Position numbers and translations under genes: made by a program. This document shows, piece after piece, positions 41,445-56,347 of a stretch of 64,000 nucleotides of DNA (the first letter of the stretch is position 1; every line of letters begins with the position of its first letter). Source of the DNA: Dethiobacter alkaliphilus AHT 1 (GTDB lineage Bacteria; Bacillota; Dethiobacteria; Dethiobacterales; Dethiobacteraceae). The stretch covers positions 1 to 64,000 of the forward strand of contig NZ_ACJM01000014.1 of the NCBI RefSeq assembly GCF_000174415.1. Direction: 5' to 3'. The notes beneath the pieces were generated by a model. That model saw only the letters and a list, made by a program, of their open reading frames with translations. It was not told where the DNA came from and did not search any database.

Positions 41445-41485
41445 ACACTTATATGTGAATGAGGTCACAAAAAAGGGGGAGCAGC

Positions 41486-41821
41486 TTGCAAAATACACTT
41501 CTTTACGTGGTTTCCCGTTATGTGGTGCCGGTGATGCAGATTTATGGCCTGTATATCATCTTTCACGGCCATGAAGCTCCGGGCGGAGGTTTTGCCGGCG
41601 GAATGGTACTGGGGATTGGGTTGGTTTTGTATTCACTGGTCTTTGGCCTGAGTGAAGGCCAAAAACGGGTTCCCTTCGATTTGGCCATGGTGGGGGGGAT
41701 TATCCTGATAGTTACCATTTTTGCTGAAATTCTCATCGGCCATGTATTTGAGATTGGCATTGGACTTATAGTGGCTTTGGTTGCTCTGTCAATTTTTTCA
41801 ACACTGGTGGAGGAGGTGTGA
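41486..41821 (+). CDS. mrpB: Mrp antiporter subunit MrpB
   Basis: This 111-aa protein has about four transmembrane helices. The signature FHGHEAPGGGFAGGMVLG (about 25-42) is that of MrpB/MnhB. The TTG start has AGGGGGAG upstream. It opens an uninterrupted run of overlapping genes mrpB-C-D-E-F-G. Canonical mrp operons begin with the long mrpA, absent here. Confidence 0.93.
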   Translation: MQNTLLYVVSRYVVPVMQIYGLYIIFHGHEAPGGGFAGGMVLGIGLVLYSLVFGLSEGQKRVPFDLAMVGGIILIVTIFAEILIGHVFEIGIGLIVALVALSIFSTLVEEV

Positions 41822-41825
41822 CCGC

Positions 41826-42200
41826 TTGGATGTAATATCCCGGATTGTTCAGAATTATCCTTATTTTGTCTCTGTGGTGCTGTTTTGTATCGGCATCTAC
41901 ACTGTACTGTCCCGTTCTAATCTGATGAAAAAAATAATCGGGATTAACATTATGGGCAACGCCATCTTCCTGTTTTTGATTGCAGCAGCCAATATCCGTG
42001 GTGGCGTGGCACCAATCCATGATGGTCAACTTCCGGAGGGGGTGCATTACGTTAATCCTCTACCGGCGGCGCTGGTTCTTACCGGCATTGTTGTGGCTCT
42101 CAGCGTAACAGCCTTTGCCTTAAGCATAGTGGTAAAGCTGTATCAGTATTATGGAACCATTGAAGCAGACGAAATCCTTGAGATAAGGAGCTGCGACTAA
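41826..42200 (+). CDS. mrpC: Mrp antiporter subunit MrpC (NuoK-like)
   Basis: This 124-aa, three-helix protein is homologous to complex I NuoK. It has GINIMGNAIFLFLIAAA and LPAALVLTGIVVALSVTAFAL, the latter a hallmark of MrpC/NuoK. TTG start with GGAGGAGG eight bases upstream. It shares one base with the mrpD start. Confidence 0.93.
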   Translation: MDVISRIVQNYPYFVSVVLFCIGIYTVLSRSNLMKKIIGINIMGNAIFLFLIAAANIRGGVAPIHDGQLPEGVHYVNPLPAALVLTGIVVALSVTAFALSIVVKLYQYYGTIEADEILEIRSCD

Positions 42201-43693
42201 TGTTTGAACTTTTGGATACACATCCGCCGGTGTTGGTATTGTTAGTGCTGATGGCCGCTTTTCTGATGCCTGCATTTGCTCATTTCGGACGCAAAGCCTG
42301 CGGCCCGGCCGCCGTTTTAACCATGGTTGCCGCTTTTATTTACAGTTTGCATTTTGCCCTTATTACCCGTGACGGTCAAACTATCGCCTATTCGGTAATG
42401 GGCTGGGATGCTCCCTGGGGCATTGAAGTAATTATCGAACCTTTTTCCGCATTTATGCTGCTTGTTATTAGCGCTGTTTGTCTGGTAATCATGATTTACA
42501 GTATGAGTTCCCTGGGGCGGGAAATCCCGGCAAGCGGCATCGGCTGGTATTATACCACTTTCTTATTGTTGGTTGGTTCCATGATGGGAATGGTGATGAC
42601 CAATGATTTGTTTAATATGTATGTGTTCATTGAAGTAACCGGGATTGCCGCCTGTGCACTGGTGCTGGCCAAAGGAGGGCGCCTGGCCACCGAAGCATCA
42701 TTTAAATATCTGCTGCTGGCCACTGTGGGCTCCGGTTTTGTATTGACTGGAATCGCCCTGATTTATGTGATAACCGGTAATCTGAATATCAGCTTTGTTG
42801 CCGCAGAGTTTGCTCTGGTGTATCCGCAGTATCCGTATTTGATTTGGACAGTGCTTAGCTTCTTCCTGGTGGGCTTTGGTATAAAGTCGGCACTCTTTCC
42901 TCTTCACGTCTGGTTACCCGATGCTCACTCCTCAGCCCCCACCACTTCCAGCGCCGTCCTGTCCGGCCTGGTGGTAAAAGCATACATTGTTGCATTGGCA
43001 AAATTTTATTTCCAGATTTTTGGTTTTGATTTGTTGGATCAGATTTTTATCCGCCATATGATTTTAATTATGGCCACCGGGGCCATATTAGGCGGCTCCA
43101 TGTTTGCCTTCGTGCAGTTGGATCTAAAAAGGCGCCTGGCATATTCCAGTGTGGCTCAGATAGGCTACATTTTCCTGGGGCTTGGATTGTCCAGTCCCAT
43201 TGGCCTGGCGGCGGGCATCTTACACATCTTTAATCACGCCGTTATGAAGGCATGTCTCTTTTTGGCAGCAGGTGCCATTTACCGCCAAACCGGTGAGAAA
43301 CGGGTGAACCGTTTGCAGGGCCTGGCCTTTCAGATGCCCATCACCATGTTTGCCTTTAGTATTGCCGCCCTTTCCATGGTGGGGCTGCCCCTCTTTAGCG
43401 GATTTATATCCAAGTGGTACCTGGCCCTGGGCAGTATTGAGGCGGGAATGCCCATGTTTGTAGGACTGATCATCTTAAGTGGATTACTAAACGCCAGTTA
43501 TTTTCTGCCCATTGTCTGGCAGGCGTTTTTCGTGGTGGATGAGCAGGAACCCAAAACGTTTACCATGGATAAAATTCCTGTTTCCATGTCCGTTTCCTTG
43601 GTTGTGCTGGCCATGGCGGTTATCTATTTTGGTATCAATCCCGAGTTCCCGCTGGCCTTGGCAACAAAAGCTGTGGGGGTCTTACTGCATTAG
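42200..43693 (+). CDS. mrpD: Mrp antiporter subunit MrpD (NuoM/N-like), antiporter subunit 1 of 7
   Basis: This 497-aa protein of about 14 transmembrane helices belongs to the proton-translocating antiporter family. The TM5 glutamate is in YVFIEVTGI, the TM7 lysine in GFGIKSALFPLHVWLPDAHS (20 residues), and another lysine in VVKAYIV. It lies within the canonical C-D-E gene order and so is the orthologue of classical MrpD. Confidence 0.95.
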   Translation: MFELLDTHPPVLVLLVLMAAFLMPAFAHFGRKACGPAAVLTMVAAFIYSLHFALITRDGQTIAYSVMGWDAPWGIEVIIEPFSAFMLLVISAVCLVIMIYSMSSLGREIPASGIGWYYTTFLLLVGSMMGMVMTNDLFNMYVFIEVTGIAACALVLAKGGRLATEASFKYLLLATVGSGFVLTGIALIYVITGNLNISFVAAEFALVYPQYPYLIWTVLSFFLVGFGIKSALFPLHVWLPDAHSSAPTTSSAVLSGLVVKAYIVALAKFYFQIFGFDLLDQIFIRHMILIMATGAILGGSMFAFVQLDLKRRLAYSSVAQIGYIFLGLGLSSPIGLAAGILHIFNHAVMKACLFLAAGAIYRQTGEKRVNRLQGLAFQMPITMFAFSIAALSMVGLPLFSGFISKWYLALGSIEAGMPMFVGLIILSGLLNASYFLPIVWQAFFVVDEQEPKTFTMDKIPVSMSVSLVVLAMAVIYFGINPEFPLALATKAVGVLLH

Positions 43694-43705
43694 GGAGGTG
43701 GTTTA

Positions 43706-44218
43706 ATGTACTATATTCGGGCAATTATTGACAAAAAGGGGTTTCTGATGATTGTTTGCATTTTGCTGGGGTTCTGGTTTTTAATGACCCCTTCGCTGGA
43801 TGCGTACAACGTGATTGTGGGTATCGGTTGTGCATTGGGAGTTACGTATTTCTGGAACACCGACTTGTTTAAGCCCGGGGAGCCCATGGGTTTTAAGCCG
43901 CTGCAGCTGTTCAAACTGTTTTATTATTTAGTATTGCTTGTCTTTAACATTGTTGTAGCCAATATCCAGGTGGCGCGTATTGTGCTAAGTAGGGATATGC
44001 CAATTTCACCCGGTTTTATTGTGGTGAAAACAAAACTTACCCGAGAACTTACCCGGACCCTGTATTCCAACTCCATTACCCTTACACCCGGGACCGTCAC
44101 CATTAACCTGAAAGATGACCGGCTGCTTGTTCACGCCCTGACAAAAGAAGCGGCGGATAATGTCTCCGATTGGTATATGCAGGATAAACTGCGGGAAGTT
44201 GAGGTGATCAACGAATGA
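43706..44218 (+). CDS. mrpE: Mrp antiporter subunit MrpE
   Basis: This 170-aa protein has two or three N-terminal helices and a soluble C-terminus with TLYSNSITLTPGTVTI, the MrpE signature. Start ATG with GGAGGTGG upstream. It overlaps mrpF by 4 bp (ATGA). Confidence 0.94.
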   Translation: MYYIRAIIDKKGFLMIVCILLGFWFLMTPSLDAYNVIVGIGCALGVTYFWNTDLFKPGEPMGFKPLQLFKLFYYLVLLVFNIVVANIQVARIVLSRDMPISPGFIVVKTKLTRELTRTLYSNSITLTPGTVTINLKDDRLLVHALTKEAADNVSDWYMQDKLREVEVINE

Positions 44219-44481
44219 TTCAACTCAGCCTGGAAGGGGTTTTCCTGGGGCTTGTAGTTTTGTCGTTTCTGGCCCTGTACCGCATCATCTGGGGTCCACA
44301 TGCCTCAGACCGCATTTTGGGCACCAACGTGGTGTTAACCAATGTAATTATGGCCATTATCATTCTGGCACATATCTTTGAGAACTACACCTACCTGGAT
44401 GTGGCGTATGTTTATGTGCTCAGTGCTTTTGTAGGCACAATCTGTGTCATGAAAAGTCTGGGGAAGGGGAAATTGTCATGA
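44215..44481 (+). CDS. mrpF: Mrp antiporter subunit MrpF
   Basis: This 88-aa, three-helix protein has YRIIWGPHASDRILGTN, the conserved MrpF loop. It overlaps mrpE and mrpG by 4 bp on each side. Confidence 0.94.
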   Translation: MIQLSLEGVFLGLVVLSFLALYRIIWGPHASDRILGTNVVLTNVIMAIIILAHIFENYTYLDVAYVYVLSAFVGTICVMKSLGKGKLS

Positions 44482-44852
44482 CCTTACTCTATGAGTTGGC
44501 GGTAAGTTTTTTACTCTGGGCCGGACTGTTCTTTCTCTTTGTGGGTACTGTGGGCCTAATCCGTTTGCCCGATTTATATACCCGCATGCATGCCACTTCC
44601 AAGTGCGATACGCTGGGGGTCGGGCTGATTTTGCTGGCCATGATGACGCAAGTGTCCGGCTATAATGCCATGATTAAACTGGCTATTATCTGGGCCTTTA
44701 TCTGGTCCATCAATCCATTGGTTGCACACATCATCGGTTATGTGGCTTATCTGCGGGATGAAGAGCATGTGCCGGAAACATTTTTTATTGACTGTTACGA
44801 TTCTCCCTACCCTGGTAAGGAGATGGCGGGAAAGGAGGATGTCCATGCCTGA
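44478..44852 (+). CDS. mrpG: Mrp antiporter subunit MrpG
   Basis: This 124-aa, three-helix protein has the MrpG signature GTVGLIRLPDLYTRMHATSK (20 residues) followed by CDTLGVGLIL. Its 3' end overlaps the next gene by 8 bp. Confidence 0.94.
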   Translation: MTLLYELAVSFLLWAGLFFLFVGTVGLIRLPDLYTRMHATSKCDTLGVGLILLAMMTQVSGYNAMIKLAIIWAFIWSINPLVAHIIGYVAYLRDEEHVPETFFIDCYDSPYPGKEMAGKEDVHA

Positions 44853-45084
44853 TTGGCTGGTTTTCATTCTGCTGACATTTCTGATTGTAGCGGCTCTGGG
44901 AGTGGTATTTATCCGCAGCCTGCTCTATGCCGTTATCATTTTCGGCGGGTTTTCCCTGGTTATGGCTCTGCTTTGGCAGCACTTTAACGCTCCGGATATT
45001 GCCATTACCGAAGCTGCGGTGGGCGTGGGCACCACAGTGCTGATGGTGGCGGTGGTTACCAGGGTAAGGGGGGAAGAGCAGTGA
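44845..45084 (+). CDS. DUF4040 subunit (MbhD-like; equivalent of MrpA C-terminal part 1)
   Basis: This 79-aa, two- to three-helix protein has LYAVIIFGGFSLVMALLWQ and APDIAITEAAVGVGTTVLMV, the conserved DUF4040 segment that in classical MrpA is fused after the NuoL-like part and in membrane-bound hydrogenases is the separate subunit MbhD. AAAGGAGGAT precedes the ATG. Being free-standing, it places this locus nearer to Mbh/Mbx-type modules than to classical Mrp. Confidence 0.88.
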   Translation: MPDWLVFILLTFLIVAALGVVFIRSLLYAVIIFGGFSLVMALLWQHFNAPDIAITEAAVGVGTTVLMVAVVTRVRGEEQ

Positions 45085-45407
45085 AAGCACTTTTTAACGT
45101 GTTGATTGTTTTGCTTTTGGTGTTGATTGGTTATATGCTGCTGATGACCGTCAGTGAAATCCCCCCTTACGGTGAAGTTGATGTGCCGGCCAATAATTAT
45201 GTCCCCCAGCGGTATGTGGAGCAGGGGTATGAGGAGACGGGGGGCCATAACCTGGTAGCCAATATTATCGTGGCTTATCGGGCCTATGATACTCTGGTTG
45301 AAATTACCGTATTGTTTGTAGCAGTTATTGCCATCTTCCTGTGCTTAAAGACCGGGCACCCTGTGGAGCATAAGGAGGACGGTTGTTCTCAGAAAACAAC
45401 GCTATAA
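45081..45407 (+). CDS. MbhE-like subunit (equivalent of MrpA C-terminal part 2)
   Basis: This 108-aa protein has an N-terminal helix, a polar segment, then NLVANIIVAYRAYDTLVEIT (20 residues) and a second helix. The DTLVEITVLF stretch is the MbhE/MrpA C-terminal signature. GTG start overlapping the DUF4040 stop by 4 bp. With the preceding gene it reconstitutes the piece of MrpA lacking from the MrpD-like proteins that follow. Confidence 0.85.
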   Translation: MKALFNVLIVLLLVLIGYMLLMTVSEIPPYGEVDVPANNYVPQRYVEQGYEETGGHNLVANIIVAYRAYDTLVEITVLFVAVIAIFLCLKTGHPVEHKEDGCSQKTTL

Positions 45408-45464
45408 GAGCAATATTTATAAAAGATGTTACAGCGCAAATGATTTGTAAGGGAGTGGGCGTAA

Positions 45465-46940
45465 ATGTCTGACCCTCTACTCATTCTGGGTGCGATTATT
45501 TGCCCTATGGTGGGCGCGTTGCTTTTGGCGTTGGTTCCGGAGGAAAATAACCGGGTCCGTAATCCATTGGCTGTTCTCACTGCAGTGATTACCGCCTCCT
45601 TTGTAGTCACCCTGTTTGTGCGTGTGCTAAACGGTGCTGTGCCCGCTGTCCATGTGATAACACTGATGAGGGGGTTGGATATAGTTTTCAGGGTGGATCC
45701 CCTGGCAGCGGCTTTTTCCACATTGGCCTCGGTGTTATGGGTATTTGCCGCCCTGTACTCCACCGGTTATATGGCCCATGAGCATAACCGCCGCCGTTAT
45801 TTTACTTTCTATATTCTTTCCCTGGGTGCTACCATGGGGATTGCCTTTTCCGCTAACCTGTTTACGCTATATTTATGTTACGAATTTCTCACCATCTTTA
45901 CGTATCCATTGGTAATTCATGCCGGAAACGCCGAAGCACAGGCCGCCGGTAAGCGCTATATTATTTACAGTTTCCTGGGAGCGGGACTGATATTGTCGGC
46001 CATTGTGATGACCGCCGGTGCGGTGGGAACCATCACCTTTGCTTCCGGCGGCATATTAACGGTGGCAGACGGCCCCGCCCACTATCTACAGCTCATTTTC
46101 CTCTGTTTTATTTTGGGGTTTGGCGTAAAAGCTGCCATTATGCCTTTGCATGCCTGGCTGCCGGCAGCCATGGCGGCGCCTACTCCCGTCAGTGCATTGT
46201 TACACGCCGTGGCAGTGGTAAAGTCAGGGATCTTTGGCATTCTGCGTGCCATGTATTCTGTTTTTGGTGTGGAAACCCTGGGGGAGCTAAGCCTGGGTTT
46301 GTTTGTGGTGGTTATAGCCAGTATCACCATTGTTTCCGCTTCACTTATAGCGCTGCGTCAGGATGCTCTGAAACGCCGATTGGCCTATTCCACCATCAGC
46401 CAGTTAAGTTATATTATTTTGGGGGCCGGCCTGCTCTCAGTGGCGGGAGCCACCGGTGGGATGCTGCACATGATTAATCATGCCCTTTTAAAAATCACCT
46501 TGTTCTTCTGCGCCGGTGCAATAATTACGGTGACCGGGAAGAAGAAAATCAGTGAACTAAACGGCGTTGGGGTGCGCATGCCGCTGACCATGATGGCTTT
46601 TACCGTAGGTAGTATCGGCATGGTGGGAATTTTGCCTGTTAACGGCTTTATCTCCAAGCTCTATCTGTTGCAGGGCAGTTTGGATGCCGGTATGTTGGCG
46701 GTTATCGCCGTACTTGTTGTCAGCGCTATATTAAATGCTTTATACTTTTTTCCCATTGTGATTACAGCGTTTTTCCGTCAGGGAGCTTTTGAACGGGCCA
46801 AAGGCCCGGAAGCTCCGCTTACCATGCTGGTGCCGGTATGTGTTTTGGCGGTGATTTGCATAGTGCTGGGCATCAAACCCGATCTGACAATTCCGTTTGT
46901 GCGCAGTATGGTTGATTTTCTAATGCCCTTAGCGATGTAA
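45465..46940 (+). CDS. NuoL/MrpA-type antiporter subunit 2 of 7
   Basis: This 491-aa protein has about 14 helices. Essential-type residues are present: Glu in LCYEFLTI (TM5), Lys in GFGVKAAIMPLHAWLP (TM7), Lys in AVVKSGIFG (TM8) and Lys in NGFISKLYLL (TM12). The PTPVSALLHAV stretch is NuoL/MrpA-like. It closely resembles subunit 4 (48891), for example in RYFTFYILSLGATMGIAFSA versus RFFTFYILALSATMGVAFSA, so the two come from a duplication. Confidence 0.92.
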   Translation: MSDPLLILGAIICPMVGALLLALVPEENNRVRNPLAVLTAVITASFVVTLFVRVLNGAVPAVHVITLMRGLDIVFRVDPLAAAFSTLASVLWVFAALYSTGYMAHEHNRRRYFTFYILSLGATMGIAFSANLFTLYLCYEFLTIFTYPLVIHAGNAEAQAAGKRYIIYSFLGAGLILSAIVMTAGAVGTITFASGGILTVADGPAHYLQLIFLCFILGFGVKAAIMPLHAWLPAAMAAPTPVSALLHAVAVVKSGIFGILRAMYSVFGVETLGELSLGLFVVVIASITIVSASLIALRQDALKRRLAYSTISQLSYIILGAGLLSVAGATGGMLHMINHALLKITLFFCAGAIITVTGKKKISELNGVGVRMPLTMMAFTVGSIGMVGILPVNGFISKLYLLQGSLDAGMLAVIAVLVVSAILNALYFFPIVITAFFRQGAFERAKGPEAPLTMLVPVCVLAVICIVLGIKPDLTIPFVRSMVDFLMPLAM

Positions 46941-46961
46941 TAAAACGAAAGGGTGATTATT

Positions 46962-48755
46962 GTGACTCTGCTGCTTGTACCGGTTTGGGCCCCGGTGGTT
47001 ACAGCGGTGGTGCTGCTATTTCTGCCGGCCAGGGTCAGGCGTGTATTTATTGGCCTTTCTCTGGTGCCGGTAGGCGCCGTGGCTGTGGCGCTGTTGGCCG
47101 GAGTGGATTTGGGCGGCCAGGTTACTGTCTTTGCTTCCGCTTTCCAGCAGCAAACGGGAGTGTCATTTTTGTCATTTAGCCTGCACCCCATTGGTGGTAT
47201 TGCCCTGCTTGGCTTTACCATGGTTATTCCGCTGGGCATGCTTTTTGGGTTGGAAGTATCCACAAAAGCCCAGCAGGCGGTGGCTCTTTGTGCACTGGCC
47301 GGTGCGGCAGGGGTAGCCTTGGCAGACAATTTTCTCACATTCCTGTTTTTCTGGGAAGTGCTAAGCATCACTTCGGCAACCATGATCTTTTTGCGCCGCA
47401 CAGAGCAGGCAGTTAAGATGGCCTACCGGGTATTATTTTTGCAACTGTTGGGTGGGCTGGCTCTGACGGTGGGCATAGTATTGCATTATCATGCCACAGG
47501 GTCCTTTGCCATGACAGCTCCTGCAGCGGGCTTGCCCTTTTTCATTGCCGGCATTGGTGTAAAGGCGGCCTTTCTCCCACTGCATGTCTGGGTGCCCTGG
47601 GGGTATCCGGTGGCACCGTTTTCCGCCAGTGTTCTGCTGGCAGCACTCTGTACAAAGGCCGGTGTTTTTGCAGTGGCCCGTATCTTGCCGGCGTCGGAAG
47701 GCATAGCACTGATGGGTGCTTTGATGGCCATTGTTGCCGTCAGTTTTGCCCTGGTTCAGCATGATATGCGGCGTCTCTTATCCGTTCACATTGTCAGCCA
47801 GGTGGGCTATATGGTGGCCGCTATAGGGCTGGGCAATTACTATGGAGTGGACGGCGGACTGCTGCATATGGCTAATAACATGGTCTATAAAGCTTTGTTA
47901 TTTATGTGCGCCGGCGCAGTTCTCTACTGTACCGGAACGGAAGATCTGCATCAACTGCACCATCCTCCTAAAGGGGAAGAGGGCCCTCCTCTCTGGCGGT
48001 CATTGCCGCTGGTTACCGTGGGGGCAGTGGTTGGTGCGCTGGCCATTGCCGGTACTCCGCTGTTTAACGGGTATATCAGTAAATATCTTATAAAAAATGC
48101 CTCCTACGGTGTGGAGCCGGTGGAAACGATTTTACTGGTTGCCGGTGTGGGGACGGCCTTATCTTTCACCAAGTTTATCTACTTCGGTTTTTATAAGGCC
48201 CAGGCCAGGGTTTTGCGCCCGCCCAGAACCACTATGACGGTAGCTATCATGATTTCGGCTGCCGCCTGTGTTCTGTTTGGTGTCTACCCACAGGCTTTGC
48301 AGGTGCTGTTGCCGCACCAATCCGCCCTGAATGTTTATTCTATGCAGGGAATTTTCGTTTCCCTGCAGGTAATAGCTGTGGCGGTGGGTGTGTTTGCTTT
48401 GATGAAAAATATACTGGAAAGGGGGATTCATGCGCCACAATGGGCCAACGGTTTGGCGCAGATTGCCGCCGGCACAGCCCATTCTGCTGCAACCGGAACG
48501 GTTCATTTGGTGGACTATATCACCGGCGGTATGCAGCAGTTGGTTTCCGGCGCCGGGGATTTGAGCTTTAAGGCCATCTTCCGCATGTTTCAGAAACTTG
48601 ATTACCAGCCGGGAGAGTCCAGATTTTTTCGTTTCATCAATGTCAGAAACCTGGAATTTGACGTCATGCTTGTGATAGTCATTTTCGGAGTGCTGGCGGT
48701 TTGGTATCTGTTTATGACACTGGAAATACAAATTATTCATACCAACCCGTTTTAA
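46962..48755 (+). CDS. NuoL-type antiporter subunit 3 of 7 with C-terminal extension
   Basis: This protein of about 597 aa has the antiporter core with Glu in LFFWEVLSI, Lys in GIGVKAAFLPLHVWVP and Lys in NGYISKYLI. After residue 450 it adds about 140 aa: an amphipathic stretch (NGLAQIAAGTAHSAATGTVH, 20 residues) and a last transmembrane helix. This resembles the lateral helix of NuoL/HyfB that spans neighbouring subunits. The GTG at 46962 has AAAGGG about nine bases upstream; a GTG at 46953 is too close. Confidence 0.9.
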   Translation: MTLLLVPVWAPVVTAVVLLFLPARVRRVFIGLSLVPVGAVAVALLAGVDLGGQVTVFASAFQQQTGVSFLSFSLHPIGGIALLGFTMVIPLGMLFGLEVSTKAQQAVALCALAGAAGVALADNFLTFLFFWEVLSITSATMIFLRRTEQAVKMAYRVLFLQLLGGLALTVGIVLHYHATGSFAMTAPAAGLPFFIAGIGVKAAFLPLHVWVPWGYPVAPFSASVLLAALCTKAGVFAVARILPASEGIALMGALMAIVAVSFALVQHDMRRLLSVHIVSQVGYMVAAIGLGNYYGVDGGLLHMANNMVYKALLFMCAGAVLYCTGTEDLHQLHHPPKGEEGPPLWRSLPLVTVGAVVGALAIAGTPLFNGYISKYLIKNASYGVEPVETILLVAGVGTALSFTKFIYFGFYKAQARVLRPPRTTMTVAIMISAAACVLFGVYPQALQVLLPHQSALNVYSMQGIFVSLQVIAVAVGVFALMKNILERGIHAPQWANGLAQIAAGTAHSAATGTVHLVDYITGGMQQLVSGAGDLSFKAIFRMFQKLDYQPGESRFFRFINVRNLEFDVMLVIVIFGVLAVWYLFMTLEIQIIHTNPF

Positions 48756-48890
48756 CAAGCCGGCATCCGGTGTTTTGTTGCCAGAATACACTTATCCGGA
48801 TATAGAGCTGGGAAATGGGAGGGTACTGTCCCCAAAAGGGCGGCGCCCTCTTTGTGGTGTAGTAAACTTCTGTTGCTTAGGAGGGAGTCT

Positions 48891-50357
48891 ATGTTGATAT
48901 CGCCGTTTTGGGCCATTTTGGTCCCGGCATGCGGTGGTGGTTTGATTGCTCTTGTTAAGGAGCATCAGGCCCGTGCCAGAAATGCACTTGCCGTCATTAT
49001 TGCCTTAATCACATTTCTGATAGTGGCGCCGGCCCTCCCTGTGGTATTGCAAGGAGAAACCATCACCTGGACTGCAGTACAGATTACACAGGGCTTAAGC
49101 ATTTCCTTTGCAGTGGAGCCTCTGGGCGTGCTGTTTGCCGTTTTGGCATCCCTGTTGTGGGTGTTTGCCGCCATTTATGCCACCGGTTATATGGGCCATG
49201 AGTATCACTGCCGGCGTTTTTTTACCTTCTATATTCTGGCATTAAGTGCTACCATGGGTGTGGCATTTTCTGCAAACCTGTTTACCATGTATCTTTTTTA
49301 TGAATATCTGGCCTTAATTACATATCCGCTGGTTATTCACGCCCAGACCCGGGAGGCCTATGCGGCGGGTACCAAATATATTATTTATTGTTTTGTCAGC
49401 GGAGCCATGGTTTTTCTCACCATGTTCATTTTCGGCGGAATTGGAGAAAGCCTGACCTTTAGTACTGCCGGCATCTTTGGCTCCGTTCTGGAGAGTCATG
49501 CACTTACTTTATGGATTATGTTTTTTATTGCGGTGATGGGGTTTGGTGTCAAAGCCGCCATAATGCCGCTTCATTCCTGGCTTCCTTCGGCCATGGTGGC
49601 GCCTACACCGGTTAGCGCCCTTTTGCATGCAGTTGCTATAGTTAAGACAGGAATTTTTGGAATCTTACGTGTTATGTTCTATCTTTACGGGGTGGAAGCA
49701 CTGCAGTATCTGGGTGTAACCAATATCCTGGCGGCCATTGTGGTACTCACCATCATTATTGCATCGGTATTGGCCATTCGTCAGGAAAAGCTTAAATCAC
49801 GGCTGGCCTACTCCACCATCGGCCAGTTGGGCTATATCACCCTGGGAGCGGCTATGCTCTCCCCGTACGGTTTGACCGGCGGCATAGTGCACATCATCAA
49901 TCATGCTTTCCTTAAAATCGTGTTGTTCTTCTGTGCCGGAGCTATTATTACACAGACCGGCGCCAAATATCTGGAGCAGTTAAACGGCATTGGAAAACGG
50001 ATGCCTTATACCATGTTTTTCTTCTCTTTGGCCAGTATCGGTCTTATCGGAGTTCTTCCACTGGCAGGGTATGTCAGCAAACTGTACCTCTTGGGCGGTA
50101 GTATTGAATCCGGCCTGCCCATTCTTGGATTTGTCCTGTTAACCAGCGCTATTCTCAATTCAATCTATTATTTCCCCATCATCATCCGGGCTTATTTTTC
50201 CGAAGGATCGTACTCTGCTCCCCAGGGATTGGAAAGCCCGCCTGCCATGTTTATTCCCACTGCGGTTTTAACGGTGATGTGCTTTGTGTTTGGATTTTAT
50301 GCTCAGCAGACCACTCTCCCGCTGGTTAATCTGATTGTTGCCTCCATATTCCAATAG
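48891..50357 (+). CDS. NuoL/MrpA-type antiporter subunit 4 of 7
   Basis: This 488-aa paralogue of subunit 2 keeps Glu in LFYEYLALI, Lys in GFGVKAAIMPLHSWLP and Lys in AIVKTGIFG. A 135-bp gap with a trace of the GGGACAG repeat and a small hairpin separates it from the previous gene, the largest gap in the locus, so an internal promoter or RNA processing site is possible. ATG with TAGGAGGGA upstream. Confidence 0.92.
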   Translation: MLISPFWAILVPACGGGLIALVKEHQARARNALAVIIALITFLIVAPALPVVLQGETITWTAVQITQGLSISFAVEPLGVLFAVLASLLWVFAAIYATGYMGHEYHCRRFFTFYILALSATMGVAFSANLFTMYLFYEYLALITYPLVIHAQTREAYAAGTKYIIYCFVSGAMVFLTMFIFGGIGESLTFSTAGIFGSVLESHALTLWIMFFIAVMGFGVKAAIMPLHSWLPSAMVAPTPVSALLHAVAIVKTGIFGILRVMFYLYGVEALQYLGVTNILAAIVVLTIIIASVLAIRQEKLKSRLAYSTIGQLGYITLGAAMLSPYGLTGGIVHIINHAFLKIVLFFCAGAIITQTGAKYLEQLNGIGKRMPYTMFFFSLASIGLIGVLPLAGYVSKLYLLGGSIESGLPILGFVLLTSAILNSIYYFPIIIRAYFSEGSYSAPQGLESPPAMFIPTAVLTVMCFVFGFYAQQTTLPLVNLIVASIFQ

Positions 50358-50378
50358 CGAAAGGAGTTGTAGACAAAT

Positions 50379-51842
50379 ATGAACACAATTCTCTGGCAAC
50401 CGTGGGCAGCCATAGGAGTTTTGGCCGTGTCCGCCCTGATGGTATGGCTTGGCGGCGAGAAAAACCATAAAACAGGTTCAGCTCTTTCGCTGTGTTCGCT
50501 TACCGCCGCATTTGTTATTTTGGTCACTTTAGTCAAAAGCGTTCTGGCCGGGGAGCGGCTTGGTGCTACTTTAGATATGCTGCCGCCTTTTGGCCTGTCA
50601 ATACAAATAGATCTTCTCAGCCTTTCGCTGGCGCTATTGTTTCTCTTTTGCGGTGCAGTTCTTGCATTATATACCGCAACCTACCCGCTGAAACAGGGAT
50701 ACCGTCGCTTTAAGGCCATATTTCTCTTTATCCTGGCCTGTGCCACCGGGGTGGTACTGGCAGGGGACCTGCTTACGCTGTTTCTCTTCTTTGAAGCCAT
50801 GTCCCTCTCCTTTTTCCTGCTGGTTATCCACCATCGTACCCGTGAAGCCGTGGCCGCTACAATGAAATTTCTGTACATGACGGTGGGAGGCAGTGTGCTC
50901 TACTTTATGGCCCTGGCAGTGGTTTTTGTGCAGTCACAGAATTTTTCCTGGCAGGACGGCGGGTTTATGACGGCTGGAGCGTATACCTCGCTGGCCTTTG
51001 TGGGTTTTGCCATCGCCTTTGGCATGAAGGCAGGGATGTTTCCGCTTCATCTGTGGATGGCAGACGTATATGGGCAGGCGCCTCCGCCGGCGGTGGCGCT
51101 GTCGTCTATGATAATGCTGAAAACCGGGGCCTATGGCATGATTCGTATCTTTCATCAGGTATTCGGTGTGGAATTAATCCGTGAGCAGGGTTGGCATGTG
51201 GTAATCCTGGTCCTGGCCATCATCTCCATCATCTATGGTTCCCTCTGCGCCTTTGCTGAGCGGGACCTGCCCCGTCGCCTGGCATATTCAGGTATTGCTC
51301 AGCTGGGATATATCCTGTTTGGCATATCTCTTTTAACCTCCGAAGCCCTCATTGGCGGAGTCTATCATATTATGGGCCACGCCATGATGAAAGGAACACT
51401 GCTTTTATGTGCCGGCGCCATACTAGCTAAAACCGGGAAGCGAAAAATTGCCGATTTGGCCGGGATCGGCTGGCAGATGCCGCTGACCATGAGCTGCTTT
51501 TCCTTTGCGGCTCTTACTGCGGTGGGTTTGCCACCCATGAATATTTTTATTAGTAAGTGGTATTTAAGCCTGGGAGCCCTGGTTAATGAACAGCCGCTTT
51601 TGATTCTGATTCTGCTTTTAAGCAGTGTAATGAATGCCGCTTATTACCTGCCCATTGCCTTTACGGCATTCTTTGGCGAAAGAAACCGGGATTTACACGC
51701 TTCACTGCTTTGGGACCGGTTGCCGCTGGGGATGTGGGTTTCCATGCTTCTTTTGGCCATAGGTAGTGTGGCATTTGGCCTGGGAGCTGAAAATGTGCCG
51801 CTAAATTGGGCGCAAAACATTGCCGCCGCTTTCTTCAACTAA
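50379..51842 (+). CDS. NuoM/MrpD-type antiporter subunit 5 of 7
   Basis: This 487-aa protein keeps Glu in LFFEAMSLS, Lys in AFGMKAGMFPLHLWMADVYG (20 residues), Lys in MLKTGAYG and Lys in IFISKWYLSL. The loop after TM7 has ADVYGQAPPPAVA instead of the usual PDAHxxAPxxxSA, a difference from its neighbours. ATG with GAAAGGAG upstream. Confidence 0.92.
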   Translation: MNTILWQPWAAIGVLAVSALMVWLGGEKNHKTGSALSLCSLTAAFVILVTLVKSVLAGERLGATLDMLPPFGLSIQIDLLSLSLALLFLFCGAVLALYTATYPLKQGYRRFKAIFLFILACATGVVLAGDLLTLFLFFEAMSLSFFLLVIHHRTREAVAATMKFLYMTVGGSVLYFMALAVVFVQSQNFSWQDGGFMTAGAYTSLAFVGFAIAFGMKAGMFPLHLWMADVYGQAPPPAVALSSMIMLKTGAYGMIRIFHQVFGVELIREQGWHVVILVLAIISIIYGSLCAFAERDLPRRLAYSGIAQLGYILFGISLLTSEALIGGVYHIMGHAMMKGTLLLCAGAILAKTGKRKIADLAGIGWQMPLTMSCFSFAALTAVGLPPMNIFISKWYLSLGALVNEQPLLILILLLSSVMNAAYYLPIAFTAFFGERNRDLHASLLWDRLPLGMWVSMLLLAIGSVAFGLGAENVPLNWAQNIAAAFFN

Positions 51843-51864
51843 GCTGACAAAGGAGGGATATAGT

Positions 51865-53331
51865 TTGCATTTATTGCCGGGAATTACTGTTATAGTGCCG
51901 TTTATCTTTGCCATATTCCTGCTTGTTTTCTGCCGACGAAATGAAGCTGCCATGAAAGTGATGGCCCTTGCCGGTTCCGTTCTTTCATTTCTGTCCAGTG
52001 CGGTCATGCTCCCCGCATTGGCAAGCGGGCAGACATTGGGAACCGGTATGCATTATATGTCATTTCCCCTGGCCATATCATTTCAGGCCGATGGGATCAG
52101 CATTTTCTTTGCCGTTATCTTTTCCTTTTGTTTTATGTTGGCGTTTATCTATTCCTTTGGTTACCTTGGCCATGGGCACGGAAAGCTGCGCTACTATGTG
52201 CTGATGTTGTGTTCCCAGGGTTCCATTCTGGGGGTGGTAATGGCCTATTCCCTGTTTGGGCTCTTTCTCTTCTTTGAGTTGATGGCCATCATCTCCTACG
52301 TACTTGTCATCCATGAAGAGGATGATAAGGCCATGTATGCCGGCTCCAAATATCTGTTTATGACCATCGTAGCCGGCTTGGCCATTTTCTTTGGCCTGGC
52401 AGTGACCTACTTTTTAGGCGGCCGGCTGGATTTTGTCGCCGGAGGATATATTGAAGCTTCACCTCTTGTAGGCTACGCCTTATTTGCTTTTTTGATAGGC
52501 TTTGGGCTTAAGGCCGGGATGTTTCCTCTTCATATCTGGCTGCCCGATGCACACCCTGCCGCTCCCGCTGCGGTAAGCGCCCTATTATCCGGCTGCATGA
52601 TCAAAACCGGCGCTTACGGATTCATCCGGTTGATACATTATGTGTTCACTGTGGAGGCGGTGCAAAGCATCGGCTTTGATACCATCCTGCTTTGGCTTTC
52701 TGTAATAACTATTCTGTTAGGCTCGGCGTTGGCACTGCAGCAGGACCAATTAAAAAGACGGTTGGCCTACTCCAGCGTGGCCCAGATTGGTTATGTGCTG
52801 CTGGGAATTGCCATGCTTTCCGAACAGGCCCTGATGGGGGCACTGTTTCATATTTTCTCCCATGCGCTGATGAAAGGAGCCCTCTTTCTCTGCGCCGGGG
52901 CCATTATGGTGCAGACCGGCAAAAAGTATATCAGTGAAATGCGGGGAATTGGCTATGAAATGCCGGTGACCATGCTGGCCTTTACTCTGGCGGCGGTTAC
53001 AATGGTGGGAATCCCCCCGTTTAATGCCTTTATCAGTAAATGGCACCTGGCCATGGCGTCGTTGGATAGCGGCCAGACATTCCTGGTAGCAGTGTTGATT
53101 GTCAGCAGTCTGCTAAACGCCCTGTACTATTTTCCCATCGTGGTTAATGCTTTCTTCGCCCGGGACGTGATGGAGCCGGGCAGCAAAAAAAGGCACTGGC
53201 TGCGAGATGAGGTGCCTGCCGGGATGGTGTGGTCCACAGCACTTTTGGCAGTACTCTGTGTAGCCTTTGCCTTTATACAACCCCACTGGCCGGTGGTATT
53301 TGCCGCCAAAATTTCAGCGGTAATCTTTTAA
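51865..53331 (+). CDS. NuoM/MrpD-type antiporter subunit 6 of 7
   Basis: This 488-aa protein keeps Glu in LFFELMAII, Lys in GFGLKAGMFPLHIWLPDAH, Lys in MIKTGAYG and Lys in AFISKWHLA. It is closest in pattern to subunits 5 and 7. TTG start at 51865 with AAAGGAGGG upstream; the longer in-frame version would overlap the end of the previous gene. Confidence 0.91.
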   Translation: MHLLPGITVIVPFIFAIFLLVFCRRNEAAMKVMALAGSVLSFLSSAVMLPALASGQTLGTGMHYMSFPLAISFQADGISIFFAVIFSFCFMLAFIYSFGYLGHGHGKLRYYVLMLCSQGSILGVVMAYSLFGLFLFFELMAIISYVLVIHEEDDKAMYAGSKYLFMTIVAGLAIFFGLAVTYFLGGRLDFVAGGYIEASPLVGYALFAFLIGFGLKAGMFPLHIWLPDAHPAAPAAVSALLSGCMIKTGAYGFIRLIHYVFTVEAVQSIGFDTILLWLSVITILLGSALALQQDQLKRRLAYSSVAQIGYVLLGIAMLSEQALMGALFHIFSHALMKGALFLCAGAIMVQTGKKYISEMRGIGYEMPVTMLAFTLAAVTMVGIPPFNAFISKWHLAMASLDSGQTFLVAVLIVSSLLNALYYFPIVVNAFFARDVMEPGSKKRHWLRDEVPAGMVWSTALLAVLCVAFAFIQPHWPVVFAAKISAVIF

Positions 53332-53367
53332 CTGTTTGAATATAGTACACTAAGGGAGGGAGAAAAT

Positions 53368-55752
53368 GTGTTTAGTGCAGCGTCTGTCCCGCAAGAATCC
53401 GCGGCTATTCCCAGTTTTTTGCCGGTAATTTTAATCCTGCTGCCGGTGGCGGGAGTGGTGGCGCGGGGTCTGATCTCCCAGTCTACAGGACATAGCGCAG
53501 GCCTTTTTAACCGCTACCGCGTGAGAAAGGCGGATTTATTCAGCAGTGAGTTTGTGGTGGCCATAATTTTTATTGGTTTGTGGCTCTATACCGTTTTGGG
53601 CCAGAGGTCATTTACAGCGGCGGTGCCCCTAACCGGCACTTTGCCCGGCTCCGAACTGTTAAGTGATATTACCCCGCTTTTGGTGGTGCTGCTGCCCTTT
53701 GCCGGTGCCCTGATTTCCGGACTCATCGGCCGCTCTAATAAGGATATACGTGATTGTGTGGCAACCTGTACCGCTTTTTTAACCTGTGTGTTGGCCATTT
53801 CCATGTATCCAATGGTGGCCGCCGGTGAGGTTAGCTACGCATTACCGGAATTTATGGGCCTTGGCCTTTTGTTCCGGGTAGATTTTTTTGGGTTTGTCTT
53901 TGCCGTAATGGCTTCTTTCATCTGGTTTTTAGCTACCTTTTATTCCGGTGAATACATGCGCCATGAGCATGCTTCCACGCGCTACTATGTATTTTTGCTG
54001 CTGTCGCTTGGCGGAACACTGGGTGTATTTCTGGCCGGCGACTTCCTCAGTTTGTTCCTGTTTTTCGAAGCCATGACCCTGTTCTCGTATGTGTTGGTGG
54101 TTCACGCACAAAGCGAAGAGGCGATGGCTGCGGGGCGCAACTATCTTTACATGGGTATTTTCGGTGGGCTGTGTCTCTTGGTGGCCATCATGATGGTAAC
54201 CATGCATGCCGGAACCACTGCCATTGCCCCGGGCCTTGAATCCCTGGCAGATATGGGTACCATGGGATATGTGGCGGCCGCACTGTTTTTTATCGGCTTT
54301 GGAATTAAAGCGGGGGCGGCGCCGCTGCATATCTGGTTGCCGCAAGCCCATCCGGTGGCACCCACCCCGGCCAGCGCATTGCTCTCAGGGATTATGATTA
54401 AAACCGGGGCATACGGCATTATCCGGGTATTTACCTTGTTGTATACTCCGGCGCAAGGGGAATCACCCCTGTGGTATACCACAGAACAGTTTGGCTATGC
54501 CTTGATCTGGTTTGGAATGGTCACCATGTTTACCGCAGCTGTCCTGGCCTTGGTACAGCGCCACGCCAAGCGGGTATTGGCATACAGCAGTGTGAGTCAA
54601 ATGGGCTACATCCTGATGGGCATAGGAGCTGCGGCTTATCTGGGCTTTGACGGAGCCATAGGTTTTGCCGGTTGGGCGTATCATATCTTAAACCACGCCT
54701 TCTTCAAATCGGCCATGTTTTTAATGGTGGGTGCCATTTACCTGCGAACCCACAGCCTGGATTACAGTAAAGTAGGGGGGCTGTGGCGCAGATTTCCCGT
54801 CACCGCTGCGGCATTTTTGGTGGCAGGTGCCGCAATTGCCGGAGTGCCCGGTTTTAACGGGTATGTCAGTAAAACTTTGCTTCACCACGCCATTGTGGAT
54901 GCCTGGCAGGCTCAGGGTGTTACTTCCCTGTGGTATGCAGAAAAGATTTTTACCATCACCGGTGGCCTCACCGTGTGCTATATTGCCCGGCTTTTTTACT
55001 CACTGTTTTTGGGCCCGGCCAGGGATGGAACTCATAAGTATGCCCGGGAAACGTTTTTGGAGCGCACCATTTTTGCCGGCTTTGCCGCTTTCCTGCTCTA
55101 CGGCGGGCTGGCCTACAGCAATGTGATTGAACGGGTGATTCTGCCCATGAGCAGCGGTTTTGTCTATAACGATTATTACCTGAATTATGTGGCAAAAACC
55201 GGTGTCTGGAATGTGGAGGATTTGTCCGCCATTTTCATCTCCCTGGGTATAGGCGCCGTCACCTTTATCCTGCTGTCCCGCATTGATTTCGCGCTTCCCC
55301 TGCCGCAAAAGCTCAGTGTGGAACGGCTAATCTATAAGCCGGTTCTTAACTTTTCCGTTAACATGTTTATGGCGGTGGGAAGGGGGATTGAGTTCGTTAC
55401 TGAAGGAGTGTTGGTGGGCAGTGTGCGGCCCAGTGTATTTCTGGCACGTTTAGCAGGCAGCGCTGATGCAGGCCTGTTGCCCCGGGTGGGAGAAGCTGTG
55501 CTGCTTGGCCTGACGCAAATGCGGGAGTCCGTTTATACGTATGTGGTGAGCATGGTGCACGAAGTGCAGGTATATACCCGGGAGGCGGAATGGGTGGCAT
55601 TTTTCACCATGATTAAACTGGATTACAACCACCGGGGAGATCATCTGTATAAGAAGCTGACACTGATGAACCTGGACCTTTGCCTGTTTATCATCATTGT
55701 CACTTTAGTGATAGTTTTCAGTCTGCGCTTCTTAACCCTGATGGTTCCGTAA
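53368..55752 (+). CDS. Large NuoL/HyfB-type antiporter subunit 7 of 7
   Basis: This 794-aa protein is the largest of the set. It has extra N-terminal helices (1-100), then the antiporter core with Glu in LFFEAMTLF, Lys in GFGIKAGAAPLHIWLP, Lys in MIKTGAYG and Lys in NGYVSKTLL, and a C-terminal extension (about 640-794) with a long amphipathic segment and final helix, as in HyfB or NuoL lateral helices. It may cap the array. GTG start with AAGGGAGGGAG upstream. A strong hairpin lies just after its stop. Confidence 0.91.
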   Translation: MFSAASVPQESAAIPSFLPVILILLPVAGVVARGLISQSTGHSAGLFNRYRVRKADLFSSEFVVAIIFIGLWLYTVLGQRSFTAAVPLTGTLPGSELLSDITPLLVVLLPFAGALISGLIGRSNKDIRDCVATCTAFLTCVLAISMYPMVAAGEVSYALPEFMGLGLLFRVDFFGFVFAVMASFIWFLATFYSGEYMRHEHASTRYYVFLLLSLGGTLGVFLAGDFLSLFLFFEAMTLFSYVLVVHAQSEEAMAAGRNYLYMGIFGGLCLLVAIMMVTMHAGTTAIAPGLESLADMGTMGYVAAALFFIGFGIKAGAAPLHIWLPQAHPVAPTPASALLSGIMIKTGAYGIIRVFTLLYTPAQGESPLWYTTEQFGYALIWFGMVTMFTAAVLALVQRHAKRVLAYSSVSQMGYILMGIGAAAYLGFDGAIGFAGWAYHILNHAFFKSAMFLMVGAIYLRTHSLDYSKVGGLWRRFPVTAAAFLVAGAAIAGVPGFNGYVSKTLLHHAIVDAWQAQGVTSLWYAEKIFTITGGLTVCYIARLFYSLFLGPARDGTHKYARETFLERTIFAGFAAFLLYGGLAYSNVIERVILPMSSGFVYNDYYLNYVAKTGVWNVEDLSAIFISLGIGAVTFILLSRIDFALPLPQKLSVERLIYKPVLNFSVNMFMAVGRGIEFVTEGVLVGSVRPSVFLARLAGSADAGLLPRVGEAVLLGLTQMRESVYTYVVSMVHEVQVYTREAEWVAFFTMIKLDYNHRGDHLYKKLTLMNLDLCLFIIIVTLVIVFSLRFLTLMVP

Positions 55753-55826: not shown

Positions 55827-55900
55827 AAATTTACCGTATAAATTTACAGAAAATTGTGATAATATAGAAGTGAGTTTGGTTTCTAAAAATGGAGGTTGTT

Positions 55901-56347
55901 ATGAGCCTGTTTCGACGCAATATTGAAATCGATATTAATCCCGGCACTGATGGCCAATTAATTCTAATAACCACTCTTACCGATATTTATCATGATATCC
56001 GCCTGACTTTACAGATATCCAGTGTTACCTATGAGATTACGGAAGCATCTCTGGATATGAACCGCATTCCCCATCCGGACTGTCCTGCCATTGAAGCCAA
56101 GGTGACACGGCTTAAAGGAGCCCAGGTGGGGCCCGGTTTTACAAAACAGGTGCTTTCTGTTTTGGGTGGAGAAAAGGGATGCCCCAATCTGACAAATCTG
56201 GTGATGCTCTCAGCCCCGCTGGCCATGAATGCGGCAGCAGTGTTAAAGCAGAAAGAGGAAAATCTTTCAGAGGCAGAGATGGATGCCTTGTGGCAAAAGG
56301 TGTTGGGCGGTGTTTGTGTTGCCTATCCCAGGCAAGAGGGAGAGTAG
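55901..56347 (+). CDS. DUF2889-like protein
   Basis: This 148-aa soluble protein has LTDIYHDIRLTLQI, R-x-P-HPDCP, LKGAQVGPGFTKQVLSVLGG and EKGCPNLTNLV. These are landmarks of DUF2889, a family of unknown function with conserved Cys and His that could bind metal. ATG at 55901 with GGAGG five bases upstream. It is followed within 6 bp by a tiny membrane protein gene, suggesting one operon. Confidence 0.75.
   Translation: MSLFRRNIEIDINPGTDGQLILITTLTDIYHDIRLTLQISSVTYEITEASLDMNRIPHPDCPAIEAKVTRLKGAQVGPGFTKQVLSVLGGEKGCPNLTNLVMLSAPLAMNAAAVLKQKEENLSEAEMDALWQKVLGGVCVAYPRQEGE

Follow-up and report, generated by a model that had tools for sequence, protein, structure and literature searches.

Two modules of antiporter-like subunits in an expanded Mrp-type locus of Dethiobacter alkaliphilus

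The window considered here is a stretch of 64,000 nucleotides from Dethiobacter alkaliphilus AHT 1, an anaerobic natronophile of soda lakes (positions 1 to 64,000 of contig NZ_ACJM01000014.1). It contains fourteen genes on the same strand, 41459/41486-55752, in the order mrpB-C-D-E-F-G, X, Y, and then N1 to N6, where X is a DUF4040/MbhD-like piece, Y an MbhE-like piece, and N1 to N6 the six antiporter-like proteins encoded 3' of Y (45465-55752). I propose that the locus encodes an expanded secondary cation/proton antiporter of the Mrp type (CPA3), in one assembly or another and with no redox module, and I put the probability of this at about 0.9 to 0.95. The proposal is supported because the Mrp cation module is complete and because no complex-I or group-4 module is found in the genome or beside the array. 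Judged by sequence comparison, the seven large subunits are a three-pump core, D-N1-N2, plus a four-subunit array, N3-N4-N5-N6. Since the array is separable and both N2 and N6 end in lateral-helix-like tails, two alternative arms, or two complexes, would be at least as likely as one array of seven pumps. The genes are these:

41459..41821, plus strand: mrpB-like (MnhB); NCBIfam MnhB models with E down to 5.6e-15; resembles Listeria MrpB; alternative start TTG at 41486, preceded by GGGGGAG
41826..42200, plus strand: mrpC (NuoK-like); Listeria MrpC at 5.5e-14 and a weak NuoK match; exact start uncertain, the reading frame being open from 41781
42200..43693, plus strand: mrpD, the proximal antiporter-like subunit, 497 aa; PF00361; clusters with Mrp D subunits of the compared loci; key Glu/Lys present
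43706..44218, plus strand: mrpE; SITLTPGT retained, aligned to ALLITLTPGT in Listeria MrpE
44215..44481, plus strand: mrpF; Asp of GPxxSDR retained in the comparison with Listeria Mrp
44478..44852, plus strand: mrpG (MnhG); PF03334; aligned with Listeria Mrp
44836..45084, plus strand: X, DUF4040/MbhD-like, part of the MrpA C-terminus; NF009159 at 1.2e-19; matches Listeria MrpA 630-679
45081..45407, plus strand: Y, MbhE-like, part of the MrpA C-terminus; NF009161 at 5.8e-19; matches Listeria MrpA 718-789
45465..46940, plus strand: N1, MrpA/NuoL-type antiporter-like subunit, 491 aa, without lateral helix; Lys and His in transmembrane helix (TM) 8
46953..48755, plus strand: N2, antiporter-like, 600 aa, with a lateral-helix-like segment and C-terminal anchor; closes the three-pump core
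48756..48890, no strand: intermodule gap, 135 bp; two weak terminator-like stems, at chance expectation
48891..50357, plus strand: N3, antiporter-like, the N1 relative, 488 aa from the ATG behind GGAGGGAG; the longest reading frame starts at 48852 (501 aa)
50379..51842, plus strand: N4, antiporter-like, 487 aa, marker of the array module; orthologue group in 31 genomes of one class
51820..53331, plus strand: N5, antiporter-like, 503 aa; true start possibly later
53368..55752, plus strand: N6, array-terminal subunit, 794 aa; AlphaFold2 model with mean confidence (pLDDT) 76; top PDB match MrpA

A first-pass annotation, made from the sequence alone, had described a fourteen-gene Mrp-like locus in which mrpB to mrpG are followed by split pieces of the MrpA C-terminus (DUF4040 and MbhE-like) and by six further NuoL/M/N-type proteins of about 490-790 aa. 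Open reading frames (ORFs) and family models bear out the order and the sizes (491, 600, 488/501, 487, 503 and 794 aa), and NF009159, NF009161 and alignments with Listeria MrpA confirm the split. The small subunits B, C, E, F and G, MrpD, and the C-terminal region of MrpA are all present, the last on two genes. Certain residues of MrpE, MrpF and MrpG are important for function in Bacillus (PMC5703873), and the stretches holding them are recognisable in alignments with Listeria Mrp. Junctions are mostly overlaps or gaps of less than 60 bp. The exception is the 135 bp between N2 and N3 (assuming that N3 starts at ATG 48891), the largest gap in the locus, which coincides with the boundary between the two modules. 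Scans for promoters and terminators found sites no more frequent than in shuffled sequence. The pattern of genes is not a matter of chance, because the identical order is repeated across many related genomes.

The departure from classical Mrp lies in the count of antiporter-like subunits, seven in place of the usual two (MrpA and MrpD). Alignment with E. coli NuoL/M/N shows that all seven possess the TM5 Glu and TM7 Lys that the annotation had ascribed to them, and the Lys residues of TM8 and TM12 besides. A TM8 His, typical of MrpA/NuoL, is present in N1 and N3, two close relatives with 53% identity. The annotation had also called for a phylogeny of the seven. In a tree of 209 antiporter-like proteins, N3, N4 and N5 fall into separate orthologue clades (support 0.99-1.0), and the N6 proteins of arrays form one group (support 0.997) with weaker support inside it; among the closest named relatives of N6 are those of several Dethiobacter metagenome-assembled genomes. 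A profile search of the whole genome (34 contigs, 3,112,004 bases, 99.5% complete) found eleven PF00361 proteins: seven in this locus, three on contig C4, where a second Mrp locus lies, and an orphan on C2.

If such a locus served a redox-driven pump, a catalytic module should be somewhere. The annotation had seen no catalytic subunit in the locus, and the search of the window agrees: there are no NuoB/C/D/H/I-like genes, the sole complex-I-like match being MrpC/NuoK. PF00346, the family of NuoD and of the group-4 large subunit, has no match in the genome; as a control, it was found in 11 of 14 reference genomes, including those of E. coli, T. maritima and M. jannaschii. NuoH (PF00146) gave only a match below cut-off that falls inside N2, rejected as a real NuoH and put down to chance or remote similarity. 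Of the set NuoB, NuoC/D, NuoH and NuoI that would mark the membrane arm of complex I (NDH-1), the window has none, and the genome has neither PF00346 nor a NuoH above cut-off. A group 4 enzyme (MBH/Ech/Hyf/MBS type) would be marked by large and small catalytic subunits, which did not appear in the PF00346 search of the genome or among the ORFs near the array. A published analysis of the D. alkaliphilus genome did not find an energy-converting hydrogenase (PMC10376724).

The relatives tell the same story. The loci compared, from this genome and others, are given L-numbers below, and genomes G-numbers. In a sample of 98 genomes of the class, 31 contain an N4 orthologue (cut-off above 640 bits, the next match being at 585). 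PF00346 occurs in 6 of the 98, just one of which (G015) also has N4, with PF00346 on another contig, and so 30 of the 31 genomes with N4 lack it. The annotation suggested looking for NuoB/D/H/I-like or hydrogenase genes that join the locus in relatives, and in all loci read the array has none beside it, nor does any HyfG/HyfI-like ORF lie near it. ORFs resembling the catalytic subunits of E. coli Nuo/Hyf are limited to distant loci with unrelated antiporter-like genes (L057, L058, L060, L065, L068), or are RnfB/RnfC-like and sit beside C4-type loci. Only in L043/L115 does an N3-N6 module have such a neighbour, a ferredoxin-like ORF that is short and weak and lies 4.7 kb downstream. Of the two readings the annotation offered, that of an oversized secondary antiporter array is supported, and that of a membrane arm with its redox part elsewhere is disfavoured by the absence of PF00346 from this genome and from 30 of the 31 N4 carriers.

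The evidence for two modules comes from the separate orthologue clades of N3, N4 and N5 and from the settings in which the modules are found. The composition D-N1-N2 matches operons of the anaerobe Peptoclostridium and of the haloarchaeon Halomicrococcus. N3-N6 follow N1-N2 in the window and in L013 (where the contig stops upstream of mrpG), and in L009/L120 they come directly after BCDEFGXY, without N1-N2, making five pumps. In L053/L124 the array also follows BCDEFGXY without N1-N2, in a different order. L010/L119 have seven pumps arranged D-N5-N6-N3-N4-N5-N6; in L116 the array follows N1-N2-N5-N6 and the contig ends at N4, giving at least seven. Elsewhere N6-N3-N4-N5-N6 is divergent from a three-pump Mrp operon (L019, L020, L109, L110), or it stands alone as a five-gene array with no Mrp gene within several kb (L016 9971-18996, also L123, and L024 9830-18870, also L121). 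The related arrays of L111-L113 have no adjacent Mrp genes upstream. Altogether there is a natural series of three, five, six and seven pumps per locus. The annotation's picture of an oversized array overlooked the two-module build, the loci where the array is free of Mrp genes, and the tails of N2 and N6.

N4 is confined to this class within a 398-genome sample of the phylum Bacillota. Every one of the 31 genomes with N4 also has mnhG (PF03334), compared with 40 of the 67 other members of the class (Fisher p = 5e-6, kinship of the genomes not being corrected for). This co-occurrence speaks for an array that operates with an Mrp base. Two side observations concern array loci. The stand-alone arrays of L016 and L024 adjoin tatC-like and lnt-like genes (named from the start of their sequences only), and L012 6732-15029 (also L117) contains N5 as a short fragment beside several N6-like ORFs that differ in length, possibly decaying or recombining copies.

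How might either module be attached? The lateral amphipathic helix of NuoL and MrpA braces neighbouring subunits (PMC7419157), and N2 and N6, like those proteins, have a C-terminal extension with a final TM helix. N6 begins with an extension of about 95 residues that contains two hydrophobic helices, and continues with an antiporter core, a lateral-helix-like segment at about 638-770, and a C-terminal anchor. In its AlphaFold2 model, helices 651-683, 687-699 and 705-752, about 94 helical residues, lie between the last two TM helices, and the best fold matches are MrpA chains (7qru_A, 9a6h_A, 6z16_A) and NuoL-type chains. The N2 model is poor (pLDDT 60, nine sequences) and of use for helix boundaries only; it has one helix of 51 residues, 496-546. 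The TM12 Lys and the end of the anchor motif are 192 residues apart in N2 and 269 in N6, so that the N6 tail is about 77 residues longer; the last TM helix comes 190 residues after the corresponding Lys in E. coli NuoL and 186 after it in Listeria MrpA. Relatives fall into narrow groups: 180-192 for most N2-type proteins, 217-220 for subunits that end a divergent three-pump Mrp operon, and 269-276 or 292-295 for most array N6 proteins. The N6 tail is equally long in five-pump and seven-pump loci. At the other end of the protein, the N-terminal extension (window 53368-53655) is common to N6 of L010 (second copy), L011 and L013, and is absent from five-pump L009 and L015.

Immediately before the last TM helix is an anchor motif, LDYQPGESRFFRFINVRNLEF in N2 and LDYNHRGDHLYKKLTLMNLDL in N6. 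Of the group's 55 Mrp- or array-terminal subunits, 53 have it, and one of the two exceptions is cut by a contig end. It is absent from all ten Rnf-linked or C2 relatives and from all 18 outgroup proteins, yet those Rnf-linked and C2 relatives sit closer to N6 in the tree than N2 does. By this distribution the tail would follow the complex, not the phylogeny, which suggests a common docking place for N2 and N6.

I propose, at roughly even odds, that one Mrp base takes two alternative arms, D-N1-N2 with three pumps or D-N3-N4-N5-N6 with five. In the mechanism proposed for Mrp with its two such subunits, two protons enter per Na+ expelled, through electrostatic coupling of successive antiporter-like subunits to one cation site at the base (PMC7419157). 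If the same is true here, the membrane potential would drive the base to exchange Na+ from the cytoplasm for H+ from outside, N2 or N6 would close the arm by its lateral-helix-like tail, and the shared anchor motif would dock at one site. More pump subunits per cation site would mean a higher H+/Na+ ratio, and with a higher ratio Na+ could still be expelled at a small proton motive force. Suppose a membrane potential of -180 mV and an interior 1.5 pH units more acid than the outside, giving a proton motive force of about -92 mV. Keeping Na+ 30-fold lower inside (also assumed) would require about 267 mV per Na+. Two protons would supply 184 mV, which is too little, while three would supply 276 mV and five 460 mV, both sufficient in this illustration. 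The composition of the base and the homology of its subunits are plain from the sequences; from these I infer the exchange of arms, the stoichiometry and the direction of transport.

Several observations weigh against alternative arms. Antiport, the ion and the stoichiometry are all extrapolated from homology. The first N6 of L010, in the D-N5-N6 position, has the same spacing of 269 residues, and Rnf-linked three-pump loci have longer tails still, so tail length is not simply tied to pump count. Runs with more than two tail-bearing subunits, or possibly so (L116, L117), are not covered by a simple two-arm model; with (possibly) three in a run, they are not explained by any assembly in its simple form. 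The regular expression for the anchor was written after the sequences had been viewed, replacing a first version that was too strict, and the motif is to be taken as hypothetical. A general rule by which the lateral helix lengthens with pump number was dropped, one type of tail being found with different numbers of pumps and the Rnf-linked tails being longer yet; calibrating helix length per neighbour on NuoL and MrpA did not prove robust.

One might instead stack all seven, D-N1-N2-N3-N4-N5-N6, on one base, a giant antiporter with a very high H+/Na+ ratio. The lateral helix of N2 would brace N1-D and that of N6 would brace N5-N4-N3, which is possible but less favoured than alternative arms. 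This would suit a locus with all its genes on one strand, mostly overlapping or separated by very short gaps, whose seven subunits all keep the residues for ion translocation and whose arrangement recurs in L013 (with seven pumps of other membership in L010/L119 and at least seven in L116). It would also suit the N-terminal extension of N6, found in the window, L010, L011 (upstream part of the locus not seen) and L013 and missing in five-pump L009/L015. However, N3-N6 occur without N1-N2 and without adjacent Mrp genes, two tail-bearing terminal subunits have one anchor motif in common, the largest gap sits between the modules, and the N6 tail is no longer with seven pumps than with five. I consider the single stack doubtful. 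More doubtful again is the notion of two separate complexes, in which B-G, X, Y, D, N1 and N2 would form an ordinary three-pump Mrp and N3-N6 an autonomous array of four or five subunits that would work without the Mrp small subunits. There are stand-alone N6-N3-N4-N5-N6 operons (L016/L123, L024/L121) and related arrays (L111-L113) lacking adjacent upstream Mrp genes, and both Nt-Nha of Natranaerobius and MrpA of Methanosarcina are reported to work without all the Mrp subunits (PMC5703873). Yet every genome with N4 has Mrp genes too, and the C-terminal anchor motif of N6 is common to Mrp-terminal N2 and its counterparts elsewhere. A broader idea, tentative but better placed than either of these, is an antiporter that changes gears: a single cation base would mount arms of D+2, D+4, or all seven, separately encoded arrays would plug in, and the H+/Na+ ratios would be different and unusually high.

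The least probable reading by far makes the locus the membrane arm of a redox-driven pump, with the genes for the catalytic module at another place in the genome. The fold and many of the subunits are common to MBH, MBS and complex I, and the second Mrp locus of this genome, directly behind rnfAB, makes some association of Mrp-type and redox pumps conceivable in the group. But the locus considered here is not the Rnf-linked one, and the reading is disfavoured because the searches for PF00346 and NuoH were negative and the array has no redox genes as neighbours. For complex-I or group-4 modules it is largely refuted, as far as sequence can tell; a redox partner of an unrelated kind may be beyond the reach of such evidence.

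Among known systems, Mrp of Bacillus pseudofirmus and Anoxybacillus (PDB 7qru, 6z16) has the same B-G, MrpA C-terminal region and Glu/Lys residues, and MrpA is the nearest structure to N6. The window differs in having seven antiporter-like subunits rather than two, two of them with lateral-helix-like tails, in encoding the MrpA C-terminus on separate genes, and in the order B-C-D-E-F-G-X-Y-N1-N6. The three-pump operons with split MrpA (Peptoclostridium plasmid EAL2_808p, a Halomicrococcus plasmid, and the C4 locus of this genome) have DUF4040, MnhB, C and D, with E, F and G annotated in Peptoclostridium, and then two additional antiporter-like proteins, of which the second is extended at its C-terminus; they have no N3-N4-N5-N6 array. 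Variants of complex I with four antiporter-like subunits (Chadwick et al. 2018, as cited in PMC7419157) likewise have subunits added, though fewer than in the window, which lacks their redox module. MBH and MBS (PDB 6cfw, 6u8y) share the small Mrp-derived subunits, the DUF4040/MbhE split and an MbhH-type subunit, but have a catalytic module, absent from this locus and genome. The demonstrated Na+/H+ antiporter mrpCD1D2EFGAB of Aphanothece halophytica (PMC5703873) has one extra MrpD, as against five extra subunits here.

Complexes described so far have one to four antiporter-like subunits (PMC7419157). The annotation knew of no characterised complex of this composition, and literature searches agree: in open-access text they turned up no description of five to seven antiporter-like subunits in one locus, nor of a stand-alone array. 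For D. alkaliphilus itself, publications speak of no more than an ordinary multi-subunit Mrp; the AHT1 genome paper lists a Na+-type ATPase and one mrp cluster, DealDRAFT_2487-2497 (PMC5609068). A series of three to seven pumps free of any redox module would permit a direct test of how the number of antiporter-like subunits sets the ion stoichiometry of Mrp, MBH and complex I. If the proposal is true, it would explain how low-energy anaerobes exclude Na+ at pH 9-10 with a small proton motive force.

The second Mrp locus of the genome (L071 5846-15556; C4:118000-136000) is a three-pump operon directly behind rnfA-rnfB; in this genome moaC lies between them. Eight related loci (L033, L034, L036-L039, L045, L048) have RnfB/RnfC-like genes upstream of their C4-type antiporter genes, and the same adjacency is readable from the locus tags given for Candidatus Contubernalis (PMC10608574), where the accompanying text passes over it. 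It may mark a coupling of Rnf and Mrp. The terminal subunit of the Rnf-linked operon (L071 5846-8044, minus strand) and the orphan C2 copy (L072 7224-9572, minus strand) carry a long hydrophilic tail, made up of short repeats of the type FDSSINDAYEKSG..ARRMAEGTE, that precedes the last TM helix.

A gene for a DUF2889 protein lies 3' of the fourteen-gene operon on the same strand (window 55889-56347) and has counterparts behind the array in L010, L012 and L118; it may be functionally linked. Beyond it a gene for an anion transporter of the SulP family (window 56758-58362, minus strand) faces the operon, and a similar gene occupies the equivalent place in L010.

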